Below, piece after piece: positions 4,393-23,979 of a stretch of DNA of 24,287 nt; the stretch's first letter is position 1, and every line of letters begins with the position of its first letter. This stretch comes from a virus, in the IMG/VR virus record IMGVR_UViG_3300046459_000491, positions 1-24,287 of that record, one strand, 5' to 3'. The notes beneath the pieces were generated by a model that was given only the letters and a program-made list of their open reading frames with translations, had not been told where the DNA came from and made no database searches. A program made the position numbers and the translations under genes.

Positions 4393-4422
4393 ATCGACAC
4401 CACGATCCCACAGGAGATGACC

Positions 4423-5595
4423 TTGTCCGCGACCATCAACGCCCACCAGCTGAAGCTCCTCATCGACAAGACCGTCGAGCACATCGGCTACGAGGACCTG
4501 GAGCCGCTGCACGGCATCCGCCTCGACGTCGACAGTCAGTACCTGTACGCCGTCGCCACCGACCGGTTCACGGTCGCCGCTGCCCGCTACCGGTTGGACG
4601 ACGGCGACCAGAACCAGGAGCCGTGGGCGCGCCTCATTCCCGCCGGCCAACTTCGCACCCTCCGCGAGTGGATCGACACGATGAAGGGCGCCGAACACAT
4701 CACCGTCAGCACCGCCAAGAACCGCCTCGTCTTCGACGGCCCGCTCGCCGACCTCACCATCACCGTCGACCCGAGCCTGGAGTTCCCGGACTGGCGGGGA
4801 CTGCTCCGCGGGATCGCCGCCCAGACCGTCGACGGTGAACCGTTCCCCGCTCTCAACTCTGCTTTCCTGAAGCGTTGGTCGGCGGCTGGCCAGAGTCTTC
4901 GCACCCGGGTCACTGCCGATCGGAAGGCGGTCCTGTTCTTCGGCGAAGACTTCATCGGCGCGCAGATGCCGTCCAACGGCGGCAGCATCGGCCCGGTCAA
5001 GGAGCAGACGTTCGAGTCCGCTCACAGCCTGTGGCTGTGGACCCTCGCCGCGGGCGGCACCGACGTCGACATGGCCAGCCTGCCGAAGCCCGAGGGCTCT
5101 CGCTTCGAAGCACCGAAGAGCGTTGAGGACACCGGCGAGACACTCCTGCGGGAAGTCCTCCGGTCCACACGCGACGTCACCGACTACGACACCGACCGCG
5201 AACTGTGGCACGCCCACATTCGCATCGCCGTCGCGAACTGGATGGCCTTCCGCTACCTCGACGCCCTCCACAACGTCGACCCGCGTGAAGCGCAGGACGT
5301 CGTCGCAGACGTTGCTGAGCAGCTCGACTCCGGCGAGATCGGCGAGTGGGCGTGGTGCGCTGCCGAGGAGGCCGGTCACAAGCCGCAGCAGTGGCAGGAC
5401 GACTACGAGAAGGCGGTCGTGGAGCAGAACGCGAAGACGGCGCCTGCTTGGGCGGAGCGTCTCGCCCTCTCCCTGAACGCCGCACGCCTGGCCGACATCA
5501 CCTTCACGGTCGCCTCGAACTCGCACGTCGCCTTCGACGAGGCGACCGGCCAATGGGCGGCGGTCAAGCCGCAGCCGGCCGACTCCGCCGCCTGA
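4423..5595 (+). CDS. DNA sliding-clamp (DnaN)-like phage protein
   Basis: A 390-residue protein whose first half resembles a bacterial DNA polymerase III beta clamp. Residues 1-60 follow the clamp pattern: INAHQLKLLIDKTV, GIRLDVDSQYLYAVATDRFT, then AAARY. Residues 145-185 resemble a later clamp strand set ending GEDFIGAQMP. Residues 200-390 are helical, with many Trp and charged residues, and match no clamp domain I know. A clamp would tether a polymerase or nuclease to DNA, which fits the recombination genes downstream. The start is taken as TTG 4423, because AGGAG at 4412-4416 sits 6 bases before it. ATG 4417 is in frame but touches AGGAG directly. The clamp assignment is moderate. Confidence 0.6.
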   Translation: MSATINAHQLKLLIDKTVEHIGYEDLEPLHGIRLDVDSQYLYAVATDRFTVAAARYRLDDGDQNQEPWARLIPAGQLRTLREWIDTMKGAEHITVSTAKNRLVFDGPLADLTITVDPSLEFPDWRGLLRGIAAQTVDGEPFPALNSAFLKRWSAAGQSLRTRVTADRKAVLFFGEDFIGAQMPSNGGSIGPVKEQTFESAHSLWLWTLAAGGTDVDMASLPKPEGSRFEAPKSVEDTGETLLREVLRSTRDVTDYDTDRELWHAHIRIAVANWMAFRYLDALHNVDPREAQDVVADVAEQLDSGEIGEWAWCAAEEAGHKPQQWQDDYEKAVVEQNAKTAPAWAERLALSLNAARLADITFTVASNSHVAFDEATGQWAAVKPQPADSAA

Positions 5596-9496: not shown

Positions 9497-9933
9497 ACGG
9501 GCATCGCGTCGGCGCCGGCACCCGCGAGCGCCTCTACGTCTCCACCACCAGCACCTACGACCCGCACAACGACCTCGACTTGATCGCCATCGAGTGTGCG
9601 CTCAACGGCGAACCCGTGCAGCTCACCCTCGCCGAAAAGATCTACGCCGCGCGCATCCTCGACAGTCGCGGCGTCGCGCTCAAGGCCATCAGCCAGCAGG
9701 TCGGATCCGACCACTCCACCGTCCAGGGCTGGAAAGACAACGGCTGGAAGCCCGGCGGAGGTCACCCCCGAAGCCGCACCCGCACACCCCGGCCCGAACC
9801 GGTCTGCGGCGAACCCCGCATGTACCGCCGCCACCTCAAGGCCGGCGAGCGCTGCGAAGTCTGCAGAGCCGCCAACGCCGCAGCAGACCGCCGCTACCGG
9901 CTCACCGGCAGCCGCAACGAGGTGGTCGCGTGA
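9493..9933 (+). CDS. HTH protein with C-terminal zinc-knuckle-like cassette
   Basis: A 146-residue protein. Residues 30-82 form a helix-turn-helix of the Sigma70-like or transposase-like kind: IAIECALNGEPVQLTLAEKI, then LDSRGVALKAISQQVGSDHS and TVQGW. Residues 103-136 hold a Cys cassette (VCGEPRMYRRHLKAGERCEV, with C105, H114, C121, C124) followed by a basic helix; zinc binding is likely. The HTH block is closely parallel to one in the next gene, so the two are paralogues. The ATG at 9493 overlaps the previous stop by 4 nt, and the stop overlaps the next GTG. It is a likely DNA-binding regulator with unknown target. Confidence 0.7.
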   Translation: MNGHRVGAGTRERLYVSTTSTYDPHNDLDLIAIECALNGEPVQLTLAEKIYAARILDSRGVALKAISQQVGSDHSTVQGWKDNGWKPGGGHPRSRTRTPRPEPVCGEPRMYRRHLKAGERCEVCRAANAAADRRYRLTGSRNEVVA

Positions 9934-10277
9934 CCCCCGCCGAGCGGCACGCCGCCATCGCCAAATACGACCGGCAGGGGCTCTCCGCCCAAGCCATCGC
10001 CGCGATCCTCGACTGCACCCCGCGCACCGTCCACCGCGCCCGCGCCAAACGACGGGCTAACGGAGACAACTGGACCTGGGCACTACCCGAGCCCGACGAA
10101 GTCGCCATCGAACGGGCCGCGTCAGGAGACCAGCCCGCCAGTCTCACGTGGATCGAACGACGCGCCGCCTACGCGCTGTGTGACCAGCGGGGCGTACCGG
10201 CCCGGATCACCGCCTCCCGGCTCGGCGTCACCAGGCAGTCCGTCTACTACGCCCGCAGCCGCCGCCAAGCCGCCTAG
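9930..10277 (+). CDS. Double helix-turn-helix protein
   Basis: A 115-residue protein with two HTH motifs. The first, residues 15-42 (RQGLSAQAIAAILDCTPRTV and on), matches the resolvase or Sigma70-4-like pattern. The second, residues 77-110 (RRAAYALCDQRGVPARITAS, RLGVTRQSVYYA), aligns with the HTH of the previous gene, including the shared lead-in D-x-x-AIE-x-A-x-x-G. It has no Cys cassette. The GTG at 9930 overlaps the previous stop by 4 nt. It is the last gene before a terminator hairpin, facing the reverse-strand antitoxin gene. It is a likely DNA-binding regulator. Confidence 0.7.
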   Translation: MTPAERHAAIAKYDRQGLSAQAIAAILDCTPRTVHRARAKRRANGDNWTWALPEPDEVAIERAASGDQPASLTWIERRAAYALCDQRGVPARITASRLGVTRQSVYYARSRRQAA

Positions 10278-10292
10278 CCCGGACATGACGAA

Positions 10293-10310
10293 GCCCCGCC
10301 GAGGCGGGGC
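10293..10310. terminator. Hairpin between convergent genes
   Basis: A GCCCCGCC stem (10293-10300) pairs with GGCGGGGC (10303-10310). Because the HTH gene and the antitoxin gene both run toward it, it can serve transcripts of both strands. Two A bases precede it, and a purine-rich stretch (GGAGGAGGAGGGG) follows it on the top strand. Confidence 0.65.
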
Positions 10311-10332
10311 CGGAGGAGGAGGGGACGTGACG

Positions 10333-10548
10333 TCAGTCGGAGTCTGCGGCGTCGGCGAGGACGCGTTCCTCGCCGAGGGCCTCAAGCGCGCGCTCGTAGA
10401 AGTCCATGCCGACGATGACGGCCACGCGCTTGCTGCGGCTGGTCAGGACGGTCGTCTCGTCGTAGTAGCGGGCCCGCTCGATCGCCTCGGCGAGGGAGTT
10501 GCGGACCTCGGCGATGGGCTTCTGGTGCTCCGTCTTCTCCGCGCTCAT
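10333..10548 (-). CDS. Phd/YefM-family antitoxin, no toxin partner seen
   Basis: A 71-residue antitoxin-like protein, the only convincing gene on the reverse strand here. It has the Phd/YefM order: PIAEVRNSLAEAIERARYYD at residues 10-29, the strand-turn TTVLTSRSKRVAVIVGMDFY at 32-51, and a helical end YERALEALGEERVL. Family members bind operator DNA with the N-domain and wrap a toxin (YoeB, Doc or similar) with the C-end. The start is the ATG at 10546-10548, chosen over a longer reading frame because a TACACT -10 box lies exactly 6 bases upstream and TGTACA palindromes precede it. No toxin frame lies downstream, where the gene meets a terminator and a convergent gene. It may act alone. Confidence 0.85.
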   Translation of the reverse strand: MSAEKTEHQKPIAEVRNSLAEAIERARYYDETTVLTSRSKRVAVIVGMDFYERALEALGEERVLADAADSD

Positions 10549-10554
10549 GTCGGG

Positions 10555-10560
10555 AGTGTA
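10555..10560 (-). promoter_or_regulatory. Likely -10 box giving a leaderless antitoxin transcript
   Basis: On the reverse strand TACACT is followed by six bases and then the ATG of the antitoxin. This spacing would place the transcript start on the A of ATG, as in many leaderless actinomycete mRNAs. No good -35 hexamer is visible; the nearest TGTACA palindrome covers that place. Confidence 0.5.
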
Positions 10561-10570
10561 CCTCACGACC

Positions 10571-10610
10571 ATGATGTACATGAGCGCGGTGAACGCTATG
10601 ATGTACATGA
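10571..10610. promoter_or_regulatory. Paired ATGTACAT operators upstream of the antitoxin gene
   Basis: The 13-base unit ATGATGTACATGA occurs at 10571-10583 and again at 10598-10610, 27 bases apart. Each holds the perfect palindrome ATGTACAT (10574-10581 and 10601-10608). TGTACA cores are the known binding sites in the YefM-YoeB operator of E. coli. The first lies 27 to 32 bases upstream of the antitoxin ATG, where RNA polymerase would bind, which suggests autorepression. Confidence 0.7.
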
Positions 10611-10698
10611 AGCTGTGAACCTCCGGACGAATTGCTCCGGAAATGCCAGCCCGAATTGCCATGCGCAATCGACATTGCTCTTCCAGATCGAGGGACAA

Positions 10699-11997
10699 AT
10701 GGCCGTCTCCAAACGACTCCGGTACGAGATCCTCCGCCGGGACAACCACACGTGCCGCTACTGCGGCGCCACTGCCCCCGACGTCCCGTTGCGCGTCGAT
10801 CACGTCACCCCGGTCGCGCTCGGCGGCACCGATACGCCCGGCAACCTCGTCACCAGCTGCGAGCCCTGCAACAGCGGAAAGAGCTCAAGCAGCCCCGACG
10901 CTACCCACGTAGCCGACGTCTCGAACGACGCCCTCCGGTGGGCCGCAGCCATGACGCGAGCCGCGGAAGTCCTGCTCGAACAAGAGAAGCCGAAGGACGC
11001 CTACAGGGAAGCCTTCCTCGCGGAATGGAACCGCTGGGGTGTCGGCGAGGGCAAGAAGCGGAAGACGGTCGGACTCCCGGGCGACTGGAAGCCCAGCATC
11101 GAGCGCTTCCGTGTCGCTGGCCTTCCGTCGTGGGTGTGGGGCGAGATCGTCGACACCGCCATGGGGTACGACAAAGTCCTCCAGGCCAACAAGTTCAAGT
11201 ACTGCTGCGGCATCGCCTGGAACAAGGTCACCGAACTGCAGGTCGAAGCGCGCCGCCTCGTCGGTGGCCGCAACTCCACAGAGAGCACCGCCCCGATCCC
11301 GGCAGCCCTTGCCGACCTCGTGGTCGAGGTGTGGCGCCGCGAGGCAGATCAGGGACTCACTGCCGAGCAGGAAGCCGAACTGCGAGCGCACGTAATCGAA
11401 GTCGCTGAGACCGAACTCGACGAGGAGGAGGTCCTCAAGGGCATCAAGTACGCAGCCTGGTTTGGCGAGTTCAGTATCGACGGCGGACTCGCTCGCGCCA
11501 TGGCTGACGAAGACCACGTTGAGGTCATGCGGTGGGAGTTCGCCTGGAGCGCAGCTTCCGGGAAGCACCCGACGGAAGCGCAGTCGGCCACCTACGAGGC
11601 TCATCGACAGGCTCTGCGGAAGGCTGGGGCAAGCAACCTCGTCCTGGCCACAGCATCGGCCGTGGCCGGCTTCGCCCTCTCTTGCGTACCCCACTTCGGA
11701 ATCTCCGACGACCACCTGAAGCTCGCAGGCATCAACGCCAAGCGGCAAACCGCTGAGGACTTCTGGGCGTTGGCCTTCGTCGCCACGGCGGCTCGATGGC
11801 CAACCGAAGAGGAACGACACAAGTTCAGGGCACAGCTTGACCGGCTGACAGATGAGGGCGGCTACCTCATCTTCGATGCCAACGCGGCTGCGGTTGGGGC
11901 CGGCGCCGCACAGGAAGCCGACCTCTACTGGAACGTGCCACGGCAGTTCTCGGCCCTCCTCGCCGCAGCCAAGCCGCTTGCTGGCGGTGAGAACTGA
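10699..11997 (+). CDS. HNH endonuclease-domain protein with long C-terminal region
   Basis: A 432-residue protein. Residues 5-62 form a complete HNH nuclease: C19 and C22 (CRYC), DH at 34-35, N49, and C54 and C57 (CEPC) followed by NSGKS. The zinc ligands and the catalytic His35 are present. The remaining 370 residues are mostly helical and Trp-rich, for example WNRWGVGEGKKR near 113 and LKGIKYAAWFGEFSIDGGLA near 249. I do not recognise that part. The ATG at 10699 has AGGGA 4 bases upstream. The stop and the initiator ATG overlap as TGATG, so it belongs to the replication operon. It might nick or process replicating DNA, or be a homing-type nuclease. Confidence 0.8.
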   Translation: MAVSKRLRYEILRRDNHTCRYCGATAPDVPLRVDHVTPVALGGTDTPGNLVTSCEPCNSGKSSSSPDATHVADVSNDALRWAAAMTRAAEVLLEQEKPKDAYREAFLAEWNRWGVGEGKKRKTVGLPGDWKPSIERFRVAGLPSWVWGEIVDTAMGYDKVLQANKFKYCCGIAWNKVTELQVEARRLVGGRNSTESTAPIPAALADLVVEVWRREADQGLTAEQEAELRAHVIEVAETELDEEEVLKGIKYAAWFGEFSIDGGLARAMADEDHVEVMRWEFAWSAASGKHPTEAQSATYEAHRQALRKAGASNLVLATASAVAGFALSCVPHFGISDDHLKLAGINAKRQTAEDFWALAFVATAARWPTEEERHKFRAQLDRLTDEGGYLIFDANAAAVGAGAAQEADLYWNVPRQFSALLAAAKPLAGGEN

Positions 11998-13067
11998 TGG
12001 CCCGCATCCGCTCCATCAAGCCCGAACTCCGCACCTCCATCACCGTGTCCCTGTGGCCGCGCGAGGTCCGCTACTTCTTCATCCTGATCTGGGGCTACCT
12101 CGACGACTACGGGCGCGGAGTCGACGACGAACTCCTCATCGCCTCCGACTGCTTTCCCCGCGACCGCGACGTCACCCCCGAGGTCGTCGACGGCTGGCTG
12201 GAGACCATCGCCGAGGCCGGCCCGCTGTGCCGCTACGAGGTCGACGGCCGCCGCTTCCTGCACGCCCCGAACTGGCGTGAGCACCAGAAGCCGTCGCACC
12301 CCACCAGGTCGAAGATCCCGCCCTGCCCGGAGGACGAGCCGGAGGACTTCAAGAGGTGGCGCGAGGCCAATCCTCAGCGCCTCCGGAATCGCTCGCGAAA
12401 GTCTCGCGAGTCCTTCGCGAAGATCCCCGAGCCCTCCGCAGGACCCTCCGGAAGCCTCTCCGGAGGCCCTTCCGAGGCCCCCGGCGGCGGGCATGGACAT
12501 GCCGAACCGGCACCTGCCTCGGATGACACGGTCGAGCCCGACGAGGGTGAAGAAACCCCAGCTCACGCCTGGTACGACGACGCTCCCGAATCTCTCCCGA
12601 ACTCCTCCGGAAACGCTCCGGAGCATTTCGTCCCTGAGCAAGGGAGCAAGGGAGCAAGGGAGCAAGGGAGCAAGGGAGAGGGGGGTGTGGGGGGTAGCGG
12701 TCGATTCGACCAGCAGCGGCAGGAGTCGCAACCCGCCTCCCGGCCTGACAGCCGGACCTCCCTCCACGAGATCCCCGACGACTTCGCAATCACCGACGTG
12801 GAACGTCGCTGGGCCCACGCCACCTACCCCGCCCTCGACCCCGACTTCGAGACCCAGCAGTTCATTCGCTACTGGCGCAGCGAGGGCCGCCGCAAGCGCA
12901 ACTGGCACGACGCCTGGCAGAAGTGGATCGCCGACTCCGCCAAGCGGGCATCCGAACGCGCCACCCGCCCCCAGTTGCGCTCTGTCGGAGGCACCGGCTC
13001 CCGCGTCGACTCCCACACCGCAGACGACTACACCAACTCGAAAGTCGAGGACCTGTTCGCATCATGA
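11997..13067 (+). CDS. Phage replication initiator (wHTH, linker, loader-binding end)
   Basis: A 356-residue replication protein. Residues 1-108 form a winged-helix-like N-domain of the phage initiator type: RSIKPELRTSITVSLWPREV, YFFILIWGYLDDYGRGVDD, then a wing ending FLHAPNWREHQKPSHPT. Residues 110-260 are a low-complexity Pro/Ser/Gly linker. Residues 260-315 are an aromatic helical end (QQFIRYWRSEGRRKRNWHDA, WQKWI) like the helicase-recruiting tails of DnaT or DnaD-type proteins. The gene leads directly into a DnaC-like loader and DnaB. The linker-coding DNA carries phased repeats that may be the origin, as in lambda gene O. The ATG at 11997 overlaps the previous stop, and the stop overlaps the next ATG. 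Confidence 0.75.
   Translation: MARIRSIKPELRTSITVSLWPREVRYFFILIWGYLDDYGRGVDDELLIASDCFPRDRDVTPEVVDGWLETIAEAGPLCRYEVDGRRFLHAPNWREHQKPSHPTRSKIPPCPEDEPEDFKRWREANPQRLRNRSRKSRESFAKIPEPSAGPSGSLSGGPSEAPGGGHGHAEPAPASDDTVEPDEGEETPAHAWYDDAPESLPNSSGNAPEHFVPEQGSKGAREQGSKGEGGVGGSGRFDQQRQESQPASRPDSRTSLHEIPDDFAITDVERRWAHATYPALDPDFETQQFIRYWRSEGRRKRNWHDAWQKWIADSAKRASERATRPQLRSVGGTGSRVDSHTADDYTNSKVEDLFAS
12371..12425. repeat. Iteron-like cluster A, five units of 11 bp
   Basis: Units begin at 12371 (TCCTCA), 12382 (TCCGGA), 12393, 12404 and 12415 (TCGCGA each), exactly 11 bases apart. Most start with a six-base palindrome. An 11-base step is not a whole number of codons, so protein repetition cannot explain it. 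It lies inside the initiator gene. The unit tails are variable, so this is a degenerate array. Confidence 0.55.
12435..12482. repeat. Iteron-like cluster B, four units of 12 bp
   Basis: Units begin at 12435 (TCCGCA), 12447 (TCCGGA), 12459 (TCCGGA) and 12471 (TCCGAG), 12 bases apart. They encode a Pro-Ser-Gly four-residue repeat, so protein-level repetition is an alternative reason for this cluster. Confidence 0.5.
12584..12627. repeat. Iteron-like cluster C, four units of 11 bp
   Basis: Units begin at 12584 (TCCCGA), 12595 (TCCCGA), 12606 (TCCGGA) and 12617 (TCCGGA), exactly 11 bases apart, as in cluster A. The array sits just upstream of the 8-bp tandem repeat. Confidence 0.55.
12636..12675 (+). 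repeat. Five perfect GAGCAAGG tandem repeats
   Basis: GAGCAAGG occurs five times without a break or mismatch, followed by a partial copy and a G-rich run at 12676-12695. It encodes an EQGSKGAR-type peptide in the initiator linker. Because the unit is 8 bp, gain or loss of one copy would shift the reading frame. Confidence 0.9.
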
Positions 13068-13645
13068 CCACCACCGACCACGACGCCTGGCGAGCCGAGG
13101 CCCAAGCCGAAGCCGTCGCCAACCGCCTCCAAGCCTTCCTCGACCGCCGCCCCGCCGCCTTCGAAGAACCCGGTCAGCTCCGGGCCGACGTCCGCACCTG
13201 GATGGACGGCTACCTGGCCGGCCGCCACGGATCACTCATCCTCACCGGCGAGATCGGCACCACCAAGACGTGGCACCTGTGGAAGCTCAACGAAACCCTC
13301 CTCCGCCGCGGCTGGCAGGGCCTGTTCCGCATCGCCACCACCTACGACGTCAAGGTCGCCACCGACCGGCCCGTCGACCACGAGGCGCTCACCCGATGGC
13401 GCGAGGCGGACCTGTACGCCATCGACGACCTCGGGGCCCGCGCCGTCAACGACTGGACAGCCGACGCCATCAGCGAACTCATCGACAGCCGCTGGCAGAA
13501 CCGCCGGCCGACCGTCATCGCAACGAACCTGACGACCGGCGAACTCCGCAACGTCCTCGGCGACCGCGCCGCCTCACGCATCGGCGACGGCGCCACCGTC
13601 GCCCGCTTCACCGGCGCCGACCGCAGGAAGGGCAACACCCAGTGA
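13064..13645 (+). CDS. DnaC-like helicase loader ATPase
   Basis: A 193-residue AAA+ ATPase expected to load the DnaB helicase at the phage origin. The Walker A motif is GEIGTTKT at 62-69, with Thr where Gly is common before Lys. Walker B is LYAIDD at 117-122, a sensor I is ATNLT at 153-157, and DRAASRI near 168 offers an arginine finger. The length is shorter than E. coli DnaC, and the N-terminal helical part (residues 1-50) would contact the helicase. The ATG at 13064 overlaps the initiator stop by 4 nt, and the stop overlaps the GTG of dnaB. This order fits initiation, loading and unwinding. Similarity to IstB-type ATPases is expected, but the place in the operon favours a loader. Confidence 0.82.
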   Translation: MTTTDHDAWRAEAQAEAVANRLQAFLDRRPAAFEEPGQLRADVRTWMDGYLAGRHGSLILTGEIGTTKTWHLWKLNETLLRRGWQGLFRIATTYDVKVATDRPVDHEALTRWREADLYAIDDLGARAVNDWTADAISELIDSRWQNRRPTVIATNLTTGELRNVLGDRAASRIGDGATVARFTGADRRKGNTQ

Positions 13646-15003
13646 CCCACGAAGACTTCGAGCCCGAGCCGCACCGCGAATCCCGGACCCCTCACGACCT
13701 GGCCGCCGAGATGGCCACCCTCGCCTCGATGCTCCTGTCACGCGACGCGATCGCCGACGTCACCGAGATCATCAAGAACCCGGCCGACTTCTACCGGCCC
13801 GCCCACCAGACGATCTTCAGCGCGATCGTGGTCCGCTACCTCGACGGTGCACCCGTCGACCCGATCGTCCTGGCCGACGACCTGACCAAGACCGGCGACC
13901 TCAGCCGAGTAGGAGGCGCCTCCTACCTGCACCACCTCGTCCAGCAGGTGCCGAGCGCCACGAGCGGCGAGTACTACGCCGAGATCGTCCGCGAGAAGGC
14001 CGTCCTGCGGAACCTGCAGTCCGCCTGCAACCGCACCCTGCACGTCATCGCCGACGGCACCGCCGAGACTGGTGAACTCCTCGACGACCTGCGAGCCGAG
14101 GTCGACGGCATCGCCGACGACACCAGCCGCGGAGACGAAGACACCCTCATCGGCGCCGACGGCGAAGACTTCCTGGAGCAGCTGGAAGAGCTGCAGAAGA
14201 ACGGGCCGGCCCGCGGAGTGAAGACCGGATTCACGGACTTCGACTCGCTGACCAACGGCCTCCAGCCCGGCCAGTTGATCGTCATCGCCGCGCGTCCCGC
14301 CATCGGCAAGTCCACGCTCGGCACCGACATCGTCCGCCACGCGACGATCGTCGAAGGACTGCCGGCCGTGTTCTTCAGCCTGGAGATGTCCCGCACCGAG
14401 CTGAAGATGAAGATCGCCTCCGCTCAGGCGCGTGTCGCCCTGCACCACCTGCAGAGCCAGAACGGCATGACGGACGACGACTGGACGCGCCTCGCCAAAG
14501 CCTGGCCGATGATCAACGCCGCGCCGCTCGACATCGTCGACGACGCCGGACTGACGCTGACGAAAATCCGATCGCACTGCCGGCGCATCAAACGCAAGCG
14601 GGACCTGCGGCTCGTCGTCATCGACTACCTCCAGCTCATGGAGGGCGAGATGTCCGGACGCAGCGAAAACCGGCAGCAGGAAGTCGCGAAGATCAGCCGA
14701 AGTCTGAAGAAGCTCGCCGCAGAGCTCCAGGTCCCCGTGATCGCCATGTCGCAGCTGAACCGCGGCGCCGAACAGCGCACCGACAAGAAGCCCCTGCTGT
14801 CCGACCTTCGGGAATCCGGGGCCATCGAGCAGGACGCCAACATGGTGATCCTTCTCCACCGCGAAGACGCCTACGACCGCGAGAGCCCCCGGGCCGGCGA
14901 AGCCGACTTCATCGTCGCCAAGAACCGCGGCGGCCCCACCGCGACCATCACGACCGCGTTCCAAGGCCACTACAGCCGCTTCGTCGACATGGCGCAGACA
15001 TGA
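13642..15003 (+). CDS. dnaB: Replicative DNA helicase, DnaB family
   Basis: A 453-residue hexameric helicase, normal length for the family. Residues 15-125 are the DnaB N-domain (AAEMATLASMLLSRDAIADV, YRPAHQTIFSAIV). Residues 190-453 are the RecA-like motor: Walker A ARPAIGKST at 217-225, FFSLEMS at 244-250, Walker B VVIDYLQLM with D328, SQLNR at 370-374, and the LRESGAIEQDAN motif at 389-400. All catalytic motifs look intact. The GTG at 13642 overlaps the loader stop by 4 nt. The frame is open upstream to 12277 only as a shadow of other genes. It gives the phage its own helicase. Confidence 0.95.
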   Translation: MTHEDFEPEPHRESRTPHDLAAEMATLASMLLSRDAIADVTEIIKNPADFYRPAHQTIFSAIVVRYLDGAPVDPIVLADDLTKTGDLSRVGGASYLHHLVQQVPSATSGEYYAEIVREKAVLRNLQSACNRTLHVIADGTAETGELLDDLRAEVDGIADDTSRGDEDTLIGADGEDFLEQLEELQKNGPARGVKTGFTDFDSLTNGLQPGQLIVIAARPAIGKSTLGTDIVRHATIVEGLPAVFFSLEMSRTELKMKIASAQARVALHHLQSQNGMTDDDWTRLAKAWPMINAAPLDIVDDAGLTLTKIRSHCRRIKRKRDLRLVVIDYLQLMEGEMSGRSENRQQEVAKISRSLKKLAAELQVPVIAMSQLNRGAEQRTDKKPLLSDLRESGAIEQDANMVILLHREDAYDRESPRAGEADFIVAKNRGGPTATITTAFQGHYSRFVDMAQT

Positions 15004-20237: not shown

Positions 20238-21152
20238 ATGGACGTCATCGCGCAGGCAATGTCCGCCGTGATCCCCGGTGGGGTGAAGCGCGGTGAGCTG
20301 GTCCGCAGGGGGCGCGTGTTGCGCTGGGTCGAGGCGGGTACCGGCGGCCCGACAGTGGTCCTGGACGCGGCCAGTGGCACACCCGCGCTGACCTGGATGC
20401 CGGTTCTATCCGCGCTTGCCGAGCACACCCGTGTCATCGCTTATGACCGAGCCGGGCTCGGCGCGAGTGATCCCGCGATGCCGGTCACGATCGACTCTGA
20501 GATCGACGACCTGAGCGCGCTCTTATCCCATACGGGAAACGGGGCATGCGTCCTGGTCGGCCACAGCTGGGGCGGCATGCTGGCCCAACTCGTCGCCTGG
20601 GCCCACCCGAAGCTGATAGCAGGGCTGGTCCTCGTGGACCCTGCACACGAGGACTTCCAGCCCTGGACCATCCGCGCAGCTGAAGCAGTACTTACCTGGC
20701 CGTCCGTCCTAAGGAGGGCCCTGGGGTCAGCTGATCGCTCTCTTCGCGAGCAGGCCGCGCAGGAAGCGGGCAAGAGGAGCGGCGATCCGCGCGTCCAGGA
20801 CCTGCTCGTCGAGGCGGAACTGGCCTGCAACGCGCACGAGTACCAAACGCGCACCAGCACTGCGGAGAGCCGGCTGCTCCGCACCCATATCCCGGCTGTC
20901 CGGCGGCTACGTGCCTGCTCGCAGCTGCCCGACGTGCCGGTGGTCGTCCTGAGTGCGACCCGGGGTTTACCGAAGGGCCTGCGGACTCGGTGGACCTCGT
21001 TGCAGGCCCAGATCGCCGCCACGGCCGTTCGAGGCGAGCACGTCGTGGTGCCCGACGCAGCCCATTACATACACGACAGCCGGCCTGAAGCCGTCACGAC
21101 ATCGGTGCTCACCGTTGTCGATCTGGCACGGGACGGGCAAGCCTCGCAATGA
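20238..21152 (+). CDS. Alpha/beta hydrolase fold protein
   Basis: A 304-residue hydrolase. The nucleophile elbow is GHSWGG with Ser110. The oxyanion region is LDAASGT at 42-48, the AYDRAGLGASDP loop is at 68-79, LVDPAHED follows strand 6 at 132-139, and the catalytic His is H276 in DAAHYIH. The acid is probably Asp134 or a residue near 240, which I cannot fix. There is no signal peptide, so it acts in the cytoplasm. The substrate is unknown: esterase, lipase, haloalkane or lactone types all share this pattern. The ATG at 20238 has GAAAGG upstream. It lies between IS21-like ends and istA, so it may be cargo. Confidence 0.82.
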   Translation: MDVIAQAMSAVIPGGVKRGELVRRGRVLRWVEAGTGGPTVVLDAASGTPALTWMPVLSALAEHTRVIAYDRAGLGASDPAMPVTIDSEIDDLSALLSHTGNGACVLVGHSWGGMLAQLVAWAHPKLIAGLVLVDPAHEDFQPWTIRAAEAVLTWPSVLRRALGSADRSLREQAAQEAGKRSGDPRVQDLLVEAELACNAHEYQTRTSTAESRLLRTHIPAVRRLRACSQLPDVPVVVLSATRGLPKGLRTRWTSLQAQIAATAVRGEHVVVPDAAHYIHDSRPEAVTTSVLTVVDLARDGQASQ

Positions 21153-21373
21153 GGAGCAACCCCGCAGATGACGCTCGTCCCGAAGGAGAAGTCACGCTAA
21201 CTGGATACGGGTCGGACCAGGAACGCATGACGGAACGGCTGGCACGGACCCCGGCAATCACAAAAGCGCGAAGGCTTTCGATGATCGGGCAAGGCGTGCC
21301 AGTACGCCACCACCGCCCGAGCCAGCACCTACTGGCGGACGCCATTAGCACGGCGGACCGCGCCGCAACATAG
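21149..21373 (+). CDS. Doubtful small ORF after the hydrolase gene
   Basis: A 74-residue basic frame whose ATG overlaps the hydrolase stop by 4 nt. It has no recognisable motif and a lower share of G/C third positions than its neighbours. It may be a remnant of an older gene rather than a real protein. Confidence 0.25.
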   Translation: MRSNPADDARPEGEVTLTGYGSDQERMTERLARTPAITKARRLSMIGQGVPVRHHRPSQHLLADAISTADRAAT

Positions 21374-21532
21374 GCCGGAGAAGCTCGCGCCTACGCCGAC
21401 AGGCAGGTCCGCGACGTGCCCTCTTTGGAGTGAATGCACTGCTCCGTCCGCCCGGCGACGGCAGGGTGTGTGCGTCGATCACGGTCATGTCGGGGCCGTG
21501 TGTGTTGATCACGGTCATGTCGGGAGGCCGGG
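21374..21532. other. Gap before istA with two imperfect direct repeats
   Basis: No gene is seen. GATCACGGTCATGTCGGG occurs at 21477-21494 and 21507-21524, 30 bases apart, each with a GTGTGTG run just upstream. The second copy runs into GGGAGG, the ribosome site of istA. The repeats could be an istA operator or an inner IS end. Confidence 0.5.
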
Positions 21533-23167
21533 GTGGGTTTGTCGCGCGCTGAATTGTTCGCCGCGATCCGGAGAGACAGACGTCTCGATCCGGAGCTGTC
21601 GCAGCGGGCTCTTGGAGAGAAGTACGGAGTGCACCGCAGGACGGTGCGTCAGGCCCTGAACTCCGCGGTCCCGCCGCCGAGGAAGAAGGCGGTGCCGCGG
21701 GCGACGGTCCTGGACCCGGCCAAGGTCTGGATCGACGCGATGCTGCGGGAGGACCTCACCGCACCGCGCAAGCAGAAACACACGGCCCGGCGGATCCATC
21801 AGCGCCTCGCCCAGGACCACGGCTTTGACCAGGCGTCGTACTCGACGGTCTGTGACTACGTCCTGATCCGGCGCCCGCAGATCGAGGCCGAGGCCCGGGA
21901 AGGGCACCGGCATATGGACGGGATGGTTCCTCAGGTGCATCTTCCCGGCGAGGAAGCGGAAGTCGACTTCGCTGACGTGTGGGTCCGGCTGGCGGGCGAG
22001 GTGGTCAAGTGCCACCTGTTCACGCTGCGAATGTCGTACTCGGGCAAGGCCGTCCACCGGGTTTATGCCTCACAGGCACAGGAGTCCTTCATAGAAGGGC
22101 ATGTCGAGGCGTTCAACGTCCTGGGCGGGGTCCCGGCCCGCCACATCCGTTACGACAATCTGAAGCCGGCGGTCAACCGGATCTGCACCGGCCGCAGCCG
22201 CGTGGAGTCGGAACGATGGCTGACATTCCGCGCCCACTACGGCTTCGACGCCTTCTACTGCATCCCCGGCCAGGAAGGCGCACACGAGAAGGGCGGAGTC
22301 GAACACGAGGGCGGACGCTTCCGCCGCACGCACCTCGTCCCGGTCCCCGATGTCGCCTCGCTGGCCGAACTGAACGAGAAGATCGCGGCGATCGACGCGG
22401 CCGAGGACACGCGGATCCTGTCGGGCAGGCTGACCACCATCGGCTTCAATTTCACCAGCGAGAAGGACGAGTTGCTGCCGCTGCCGTTCGAGGAGTTCGA
22501 GTGCGGCATCACGCTGACGCCGAAGGTCGACCGCAGCAGCCGGATCACGGTCCGCCAGTGCCACTACTCGGTGCCCGCCCGTTTCATCGGGCAGAACGTG
22601 CGCGTCCTGCTGCGGGGCAACGAACTACTGGTGTTCGAACGGCGGACGATCGCCGCCCGTCACCCCCGGCTGACCCGGCGGGGCGAGTTTCGCGACGAAC
22701 TCGACCACTACCTGGAGATCCTGCTGACCAAGCCGGGCGCCATGGCCGGTTCCACCGCCCTGGCAACCGCCCGCCAGAACGGATCGTTCACCGAGGTCCA
22801 TGAGGCGTTCTGGGCCGCGGCCCGCACCGCGCACGGAGACGCGGCGGGGACCAGGGCCCTGATCGAGGTCCTCCTGCTGCACCGGCGGATGCCGGCCGAG
22901 GCGGTCCAGCTGGGCATGGCGGCCGCGATCCGGGCCGGCGCTGCCACCGCGGACGTCGTGGCCGTCGAGGCCCGCAAAGCAGCCGCGCAAACACCAGAGC
23001 CCGCCGAGAAGGGAGACGACGGAGACGACCCGCCGCCGTGGGCCGAGCCCAGCGGGGTGGTCTCCCTGACGGCCCGCAGAGCCCAGCTGCCCGAGGACAA
23101 TCGCCCGCTGCCGACCGTGAGCCACTACGACCAGCTCCTGACCCGCCAACCGAAAGGCACTGCATGA
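21533..23167 (+). CDS. istA: IS21-family transposase IstA
   Basis: A 544-residue DDE transposase. Residues 1-48 form an HTH (LSQRALGEKYGVHRRTVRQA). Residues 82-112 form a second DNA-binding part. The catalytic core has D145 (EVDFADV), D208 (IRYDNLKP) and E252 (AHEKGG), so the triad looks complete. The C-part, residues 300-450, has the usual Mu-C-like beta segment (VRQCHYSVPARFIGQNVRVL). The length is normal for IS21 IstA. The start GTG at 21533 has GGGAGG at 21521-21526. The stop overlaps the istB ATG by 4 nt, as is usual. It is probably active. Confidence 0.93.
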   Translation: MGLSRAELFAAIRRDRRLDPELSQRALGEKYGVHRRTVRQALNSAVPPPRKKAVPRATVLDPAKVWIDAMLREDLTAPRKQKHTARRIHQRLAQDHGFDQASYSTVCDYVLIRRPQIEAEAREGHRHMDGMVPQVHLPGEEAEVDFADVWVRLAGEVVKCHLFTLRMSYSGKAVHRVYASQAQESFIEGHVEAFNVLGGVPARHIRYDNLKPAVNRICTGRSRVESERWLTFRAHYGFDAFYCIPGQEGAHEKGGVEHEGGRFRRTHLVPVPDVASLAELNEKIAAIDAAEDTRILSGRLTTIGFNFTSEKDELLPLPFEEFECGITLTPKVDRSSRITVRQCHYSVPARFIGQNVRVLLRGNELLVFERRTIAARHPRLTRRGEFRDELDHYLEILLTKPGAMAGSTALATARQNGSFTEVHEAFWAAARTAHGDAAGTRALIEVLLLHRRMPAEAVQLGMAAAIRAGAATADVVAVEARKAAAQTPEPAEKGDDGDDPPPWAEPSGVVSLTARRAQLPEDNRPLPTVSHYDQLLTRQPKGTA

Positions 23168-23979
23168 GCACGACCGCCGCACCCACCCGCCAGCACGTTC
23201 CTCCGCCCCGCCGGGACGTCGGACCGGAGGAGGCCGTGGACACGGCCATCGACGAGGCATGCCGCAGCCTGCACCTGCCCACCATCCGCAGCCGGGTCTC
23301 GGAGATGGCCGAGGAGGCGATGCGTCAGCGGTCCAGCTACAAGGACTTCCTCGCCGACCTGCTGGAAGCCGAGTGCGCCGAACGCGAGGAACGGCGCAAA
23401 CAGCGGCTGGTCAGAGACGCCAACTTCCCCCGGCCCAAGCGTCTGGAAGACTTCGACTTCACCGAAAACCCAAACGTCACCCCGGAACTGGTCGGCACCC
23501 TGTCGGATCCCTCCTGGGTCAAGGCCGGGCAGCCGCTCTGCCTGATCGGCGACTCCGGCACCGGCAAGTCCCACCTGCTCATCGGGATCGGCACCGCCAT
23601 GGCCGAGGCTGGCCTCAAGGTCCGCTACACAACCACGGTCAACCTGGTCAACGAGCTCGCCGAGGCCGCCGACGAGAAGAAGCTGGTCCGCACCATCGCC
23701 CGCTACGGCCGCGTCGACCTGCTCTGCCTGGACGAGTTTGGATACCTCGATCTCGACAAGGCCGGAGCGAAACTACTGTTCCAGATCTTCACCGAGCGCG
23801 AAGAACGCAGGGCCATCGCCATCGCGTCGAACGCCCCGTTCTCCGAGTGGAAGCAGACTTTCACCGACCCCCGGCTCTGCACCGCGATCGTCGACCGCGT
23901 CACCTTCAACGCACACATCGTCGAGACCGGCACCGACTCCTACCGCTTCGCCCAGAGTCAAAAGAAGCGACGCCGCTGA
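23164..23979 (+). CDS. istB: IS21-family helper ATPase IstB
   Basis: A 271-residue AAA+ ATPase that helps IstA select and bind target DNA. Walker A is GDSGTGKSH at 129-137, Walker B is LLCLDEFGY at 186-194, a sensor ASNAPFSEW follows near 221, and IVDRVTFNAHIVETG lies near the end. The N-terminal IstB helix block is at residues 22-70 (ACRSLHLPTIRSRVSEMAEE). The length and motifs are complete. The ATG at 23164 overlaps the istA stop. A strong terminator follows 15 bases after its stop. Confidence 0.94.
   Translation: MSTTAAPTRQHVPPPRRDVGPEEAVDTAIDEACRSLHLPTIRSRVSEMAEEAMRQRSSYKDFLADLLEAECAEREERRKQRLVRDANFPRPKRLEDFDFTENPNVTPELVGTLSDPSWVKAGQPLCLIGDSGTGKSHLLIGIGTAMAEAGLKVRYTTTVNLVNELAEAADEKKLVRTIARYGRVDLLCLDEFGYLDLDKAGAKLLFQIFTEREERRAIAIASNAPFSEWKQTFTDPRLCTAIVDRVTFNAHIVETGTDSYRFAQSQKKRRR

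Follow-up and report, generated by a model that had tools for sequence, protein, structure and literature searches.

A solo Phd/YefM-type protein as a probable repressor of its own gene and of a divergent replication operon in Streptomyces temperate phages

The window analysed here is an entire IMG/VR record of 24,287 bases and is probably a fragment of a larger genome. Its minus strand carries an open reading frame of 71 codons, with an ATG at 10548 and a stop ending at 10333, whose product matches the Phd/YefM family in both Pfam (PF02604, 37.1 bits against a curated cut-off of 29.8) and NCBIfam (TIGR01552, 27.0 against 20.8). When the ORF list was read by eye, this was the only leftward gene, all other credible genes lying on the plus strand. 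An original prediction had placed a YefM/Phd-type antitoxin at this position, on the strand opposite to every other gene and followed only by a terminator and a convergent gene, and our analysis bears out each of these points: the stop codon is followed by a hairpin, which is likely the terminator of the regulator gene, and then by a helix–turn–helix (HTH) gene (Table 1). A similar GCCCCGC...GCGGGGC stem lies 3' of the regulator gene in nearly all relatives. No homologues were found among named phages when a phage collection was searched with this protein and with one of its more distant relatives (group B, see below), and no solved structure matched the regulator in sequence. The predicted structure, a helix-strand-strand-helix arrangement with an unstructured tail, is consistent with the Phd/YefM family, although the model is of low confidence (pLDDT 57).

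Table 1. Features of the regulator locus and the divergent replication operon (coordinates in the window)
Feature	Coordinates	Strand	Basis
Convergent HTH DNA-binding gene, last of the preceding plus-strand unit	9930..10277	+	PF13384 6e-11; phrog_664 1e-11
Hairpin, 8 G+C-rich pairs, 21 nt past the regulator stop	10292..10311	-	folding, z -1.8
Solo Phd/YefM-type regulator, 71 aa	10333..10548	-	PF02604 37.1 bits, TIGR01552; alignment, N-/C-part identities
Conserved non-coding operator/promoter block, -62..-1 of the regulator gene	10549..10610	.	column information; non-coding substitution pattern
Putative regulator -10 box TACACT, 7 nt from the ATG	10555..10560	-	TANNNT conservation
Third, partial site GGTACA, -14..-9, overlapping the regulator -10 box	10557..10562	.	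conservation
TGTACA palindrome 2, -32..-27, doubling as -35-like hexamer of the divergent promoter	10575..10580	.	
Putative divergent promoter TGTACA-16-TATGAT, facing the replication operon	10575..10602	+	sigma70-like search
TGTACA palindrome 1, -59..-54, abutting the divergent -10 box	10602..10607	.	ATGTACATCAT repeat; shuffles; conservation
HNH-nuclease protein, 432 aa, first gene of the divergent operon	10699..11997	+	PF14279/PF01844; phrog_14314 1.8e-70
Replication initiation protein	11997..13067	+	phrog_1408 5e-39
DnaC-like helicase loader	13064..13645	+	phrog_50 2e-23
DnaB-like replicative helicase	13642..15003	+	translation read by eye, Walker A motif visible; no profile search

Three other regions of the window, all on the plus strand, deserve mention. 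Near the left end, 704-1609 encodes an antirepressor-like protein (Bro-N/KilAC, phrog_63/130 Ant), so that the phage would have a further regulatory layer. In the early region, a gene for a sliding-clamp-like protein (4417-5595; DNA_pol3_beta_2, 23.9 bits, under the cut-off) precedes YqaJ and RecT recombination genes. At the right end, an alpha/beta hydrolase gene is found together with an IS21-like transposase pair (IstA/IstB) in 20238-23979, a stretch that likely marks the phage boundary with host or inserted DNA.

To gather relatives of the regulator, we scanned viral contigs, Streptomyces genomes and plasmids at the protein level and with profiles, which yielded about 25 distinct loci in Streptomyces phages or prophages and one plasmid. 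Among the 393 Streptomyces genomes sampled, the close form (group A) occurred in five, two of them already known, and group B in four. At every locus examined the regulator gene is divergent from a replication operon. The first gene of that operon varies: it encodes the same HNH protein as in the window, another HNH protein, an initiator of phrog_270 or phrog_2447, endonuclease VII, a DNA methyltransferase or a protein of no known family. At four loci (L027, L028, L029 and L031) the methyltransferase or unknown gene comes first and is followed by an HNH or initiator gene. Plasmid pSITFR-21c carries a 61%-identical gene that stands alone, opposite to its neighbours and divergent from a GIY-YIG nuclease gene. 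In Streptomyces acidicola (NZ_VMNX01000001.1), the regulator and its flanks are present twice on one contig, about 90 kb apart (L012 and L013), with the regulator and the compared flanking genes identical; these copies may be two related prophages, a duplication or an assembly effect. A related HNH operon in Gordonia phage Ohgeesy (L090, 2126-2893) starts beside leftward genes of unknown family that occupy a comparable divergent place, and these gave no Phd/YefM family match.

The original prediction had also stated that no toxin is linked to the antitoxin gene. Toxin families were not matched by any of the ~40 window ORFs in Pfam searches, and a six-frame search of the record with YoeB and ParE models was likewise negative. 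Considering that the record is probably a fragment, toxin absence from the window alone is weak evidence. We therefore checked 12 related phage records, eight of them 64–91 kb long. Each contains exactly one PF02604 protein and none contains a ParE, Fic/Doc or YoeB toxin, indicating that the 'lone' state is a family trait rather than an accident of fragmentation; the remaining relatives are toxin-less as well. A toxin elsewhere in the same prophage, which the prediction had named as evidence against itself, was thus sought with ParE, Fic and YoeB models and Pfam scans, and the candidate of a hidden toxin was rejected. The type II hallmark of a toxin gene beside the antitoxin gene is accordingly lacking in the window and, for ParE/Fic/YoeB, in the 12 related records.

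The two halves of the protein have evolved very differently. Among 21 solo proteins, the N-domain (to residue 64) has a mean identity of 85%, whereas the tail beyond about residue 64 is disordered or variable, ranges from 5 to 31 residues and is only 14% identical. In 19 toxin-paired Streptomyces cousins, by contrast, the tail is 31–34 residues long and 58% identical while the N-domain is less conserved (66%); of the ORFs downstream of these cousins, three were tested and all encode ParE toxins. In the Phd/YefM family the C-terminal part binds the toxin, as established for YefM–YoeB, and a conserved toxin-binding region of this kind is what the solo proteins lack. Solo and toxin-paired proteins split in an N-domain tree with a support of 0.999. 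Two arginines, R16 and R38, are present in 26 of 26 aligned solo relatives and are putative DNA-contact residues by alignment; we take them to be the equivalents of E. coli YefM R10 and R31. Both YefM residues are needed for DNA binding (Bailey and Hayes 2009, as cited in PMC4803016), and the N-domain thus has the arginine pair expected of the family. The solo proteins also have about nine additional, partly basic N-terminal residues. Despite the differing tail lengths, most of them end in Ser-Asp or Glu-Ser, often ...DSD (10333-10341 and the 3' ends of relatives), which might reflect a brief signal at the C-terminus or a constraint acting on the DNA.

That the gene is a decaying toxin–antitoxin remnant without present function would agree with the missing toxin and the eroded tail. 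Heterozygosity in the N-domain, however, is 0.225 at third codon positions versus 0.07–0.08 at positions 1 and 2, an excess indicating that the domain is under purifying selection, and the operator (see below) and the locus layout are conserved across the ~25 loci. We regard decay as extremely unlikely. Alternatively, the protein could neutralise an infection-aborting host toxin of the ParE/RelE/YoeB type while autoregulating from its TGTACA sites, which is the counter-defence role that the original prediction had proposed. Phage antitoxins with such a role exist, T4 Dmd and phiTE pseudo-ToxI both acting against abortive toxins, and membership in the Phd/YefM family, phage records without a toxin and related antitoxin–ParE pairs on Streptomyces chromosomes would all fit. 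The region that should contact the toxin is nevertheless short and variable here, yet conserved in the toxin-paired cousins, and the constant link to a divergent replication promoter is left unexplained, since a protein that neutralises a toxin might be expected to do without a constant position in front of a replication operon. Counter-defence is therefore unlikely in our view, and this part of the prediction was not supported, although the protein may retain some antitoxin activity. Its other part, that the protein acts as a repressor, is well supported by the conserved DNA-binding domain and the constant divergent position, and by the operator and promoters described in the following.

Alignment of 20 group A sequences on the ATG revealed a conserved block, not noted in the original prediction, immediately upstream of the regulator gene, with a mean information of 1.5–1.8 bits per column from -60 to the ATG versus 0.2–0.5 beyond about -70. 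These 62 bp are kept between sequences that are unrelated just upstream; the block has stayed with the regulator gene while the neighbourhood was exchanged. Since the frame across the block is open (FMYIIA...), an N-terminal coding extension was considered and rejected. Variation at codon positions 1/2/3 is 0.172/0.164/0.122 in the block versus 0.082/0.070/0.225 in the gene, and the non-synonymous to synonymous codon differences are 1308:155 and 1465:2048, respectively. The lowest variation at third positions and the 1308:155 ratio indicate that the block is regulatory DNA and not protein-coding.

Within the block, two TGTACA palindromes lie 27 bp apart, each within an 11-mer, ATGTACATCAT, that has no mismatch in either copy. 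When the 150-bp spacer was shuffled 20,000 times, two copies of this 11-mer never arose, and two TGTACA copies arose in 0.01% of dinucleotide shuffles. The third, partial site follows at a spacing of 18 bp, and all 20 group A sequences share its GTACA (from -13) without change. As is typical of the Phd/YefM family, TGTACA palindromes therefore overlap the regulator's own promoter, with a spacing unlike that in E. coli. A scan of IMG/VR DNA with the operator motif returned 14 contigs, 12 of which were known carriers of the regulator, and the two new ones likewise carry it beside the motif. In one relative (L051), TGGACA replaces TGTACA at the -35 position, so that the promoter hexamer is kept but the palindrome is lost. 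Group B (L052, L053, L054 and L057) has TAGCTA-type motifs in place of TGTACA, raising the possibility of a shift in DNA specificity; in these four, TAGCTATCATAGCTA-type repeats surround the same divergent TATGAT box, and the gene is also divergent from phage replication initiators.

Both putative promoters are visible in the block. On the regulator strand, TANNNT occurs exactly at -12..-7 in 26 of 26 relatives, including group B and the plasmid, and from this position a leaderless regulator mRNA starting at the ATG is predicted. On the opposite strand, TGTACA-16-TATGAT is the only sigma70-like site in the 1.2 kb from 9800 to 11000 (mean in shuffles, 0.0), and TATNAT is found in 24 of 26 relatives; we consider this the putative promoter that drives the replication operon. 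Variable columns coincide with the tolerant positions of the -10 hexamers. At the sequence level, the operator sites thus lie between two divergent promoters, the regulator's own and that of the replication operon, as expected of a Cro-like switch.

The sign of the regulation is not readable from sequence. With sites in the -35 and start regions of its promoter, the replication operon might instead be activated by the protein, or regulated in both modes. Palindromes placed over -10 and -35 boxes, however, usually block RNA polymerase, and the sites overlap core elements of both promoters, which makes repression the most likely outcome. The characterised YefM and Axe proteins, moreover, repress (PMC7730913). 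We judge activation to be improbable.

Taken together, these data suggest that a former type II antitoxin, cut down to its DNA-binding half, has probably become a dedicated regulator of Streptomyces temperate phages that represses the replication operon opposite it as well as its own gene. A dimer of the regulator would occupy the TGTACA sites of the 62-bp spacer, shutting its own leaderless promoter (-10 TACACT) as well as the TGTACA-16-TATGAT promoter, and so turning off the HNH protein, the initiator, the helicase loader and the helicase. The outcome would be a self-limiting control of phage DNA replication, with a layout like that of lambda Cro on its three-site divergent operator. Binding to the sites without a toxin, the repressive sign of the effect and its moment in the phage cycle are our inferences. 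The chief caution is that S. lividans YefM purified alone did not shift its promoter, whereas the YefM–YoeB complex did (PMC3303803). A YefM-type repressor that lacks a toxin therefore needs stronger binding of its own, and the extra basic N-terminal residues, together with two to three sites rather than one, might offset the missing partner. The unusual spacing of the sites, the low confidence of the structure model and the TAGCTA-type motifs of group B also speak against the proposed repressor. The same observation of poor binding by YefM alone (PMC3303803), and the corepressor function of toxins in relatives, would favour a two-part regulator in which the levels of a host ParE or YoeB tune binding and couple phage replication to host stress. 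This reading is very unlikely, as the presumed toxin-binding tail has been lost.

Whether the repressor forms part of something more general is evenly balanced in our estimation. Divergent promoters, three-site operator, leaderless regulator gene and terminator could together make up an exchangeable cassette. Once toxin and toxin-binding tail were lost, this cassette would have been set before different replication operons in temperate phages of Streptomyces, and the Phd/YefM fold would then underlie a novel class of phage switch. No description of a solo Phd/YefM regulator of phage replication was found in the literature searched, in which subscription journals were thinly covered, and a phage replication module under such control appears to be undescribed. 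Solo antitoxins are common and are usually taken as leftovers or counter-defence genes. The comparative sequence evidence points to another, specific fate: the protein retains the part that binds DNA and gives up the part that binds the toxin, while its operator has grown and become linked to phage replication. This provides a testable case of an antitoxin turning into a phage regulator, as well as a sequence rule, tail decay plus a conserved divergent operator, by which regulators of this kind can be told from true antitoxins. Streptomyces genetics may also gain a small repressor/operator part.

Compared with E. coli YefM–YoeB and E. faecium Axe–Txe (PMC7730913, PMC4803016), the phage regulator is alike in family, in the two DNA-binding arginines and in promoter-overlapping palindromes with the TGTACA core of the E. 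coli YefM and Axe operators (PMC7730913), and autorepression is expected. It differs in lacking a toxin gene and a toxin-binding tail, in the spacing of its sites (27 and 18 bp versus 12 bp in E. coli YefM operators) and in its predicted control of a divergent phage replication operon. YefM–YoeB of Streptomyces lividans/coelicolor shares the host group, the family and a bidirectional spacer upstream of the antitoxin gene, but there the toxin is present, DNA binding is not detectable without it, and host glnE is the divergent gene (PMC3303803). Chromosomal Streptomyces Phd/YefM–ParE pairs (e.g. L056, L066 and L069) resemble the phage locus in N-domain, TGTACA and a predicted mRNA start near the ATG; they differ in having a ParE gene 3–5 nt downstream, a single TGTACA and a conserved tail of 31–34 aa.

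PfiT/PfiA of the Pseudomonas prophage Pf4 (PMC7264888, as described in PMC7549136) also includes a Phd/YefM-family prophage antitoxin that affects phage production, but according to that description it is a complete toxin–antitoxin pair with the toxin as corepressor. Makarova et al. 2009 (PMC2701414) described solo antitoxins as abundant and suggested that they regulate other operons; in its passages on solo antitoxins this is a general prediction, made without reference to a phage replication module, an operator or tail loss.

Lambda Cro is a small DNA-binding protein that acts on a three-site operator between PRM and PR, combining negative autoregulation with control of replication genes. 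The likeness is functional only: Cro has an HTH fold, whereas the phage regulator belongs to the Phd/YefM family and is an antitoxin by descent.
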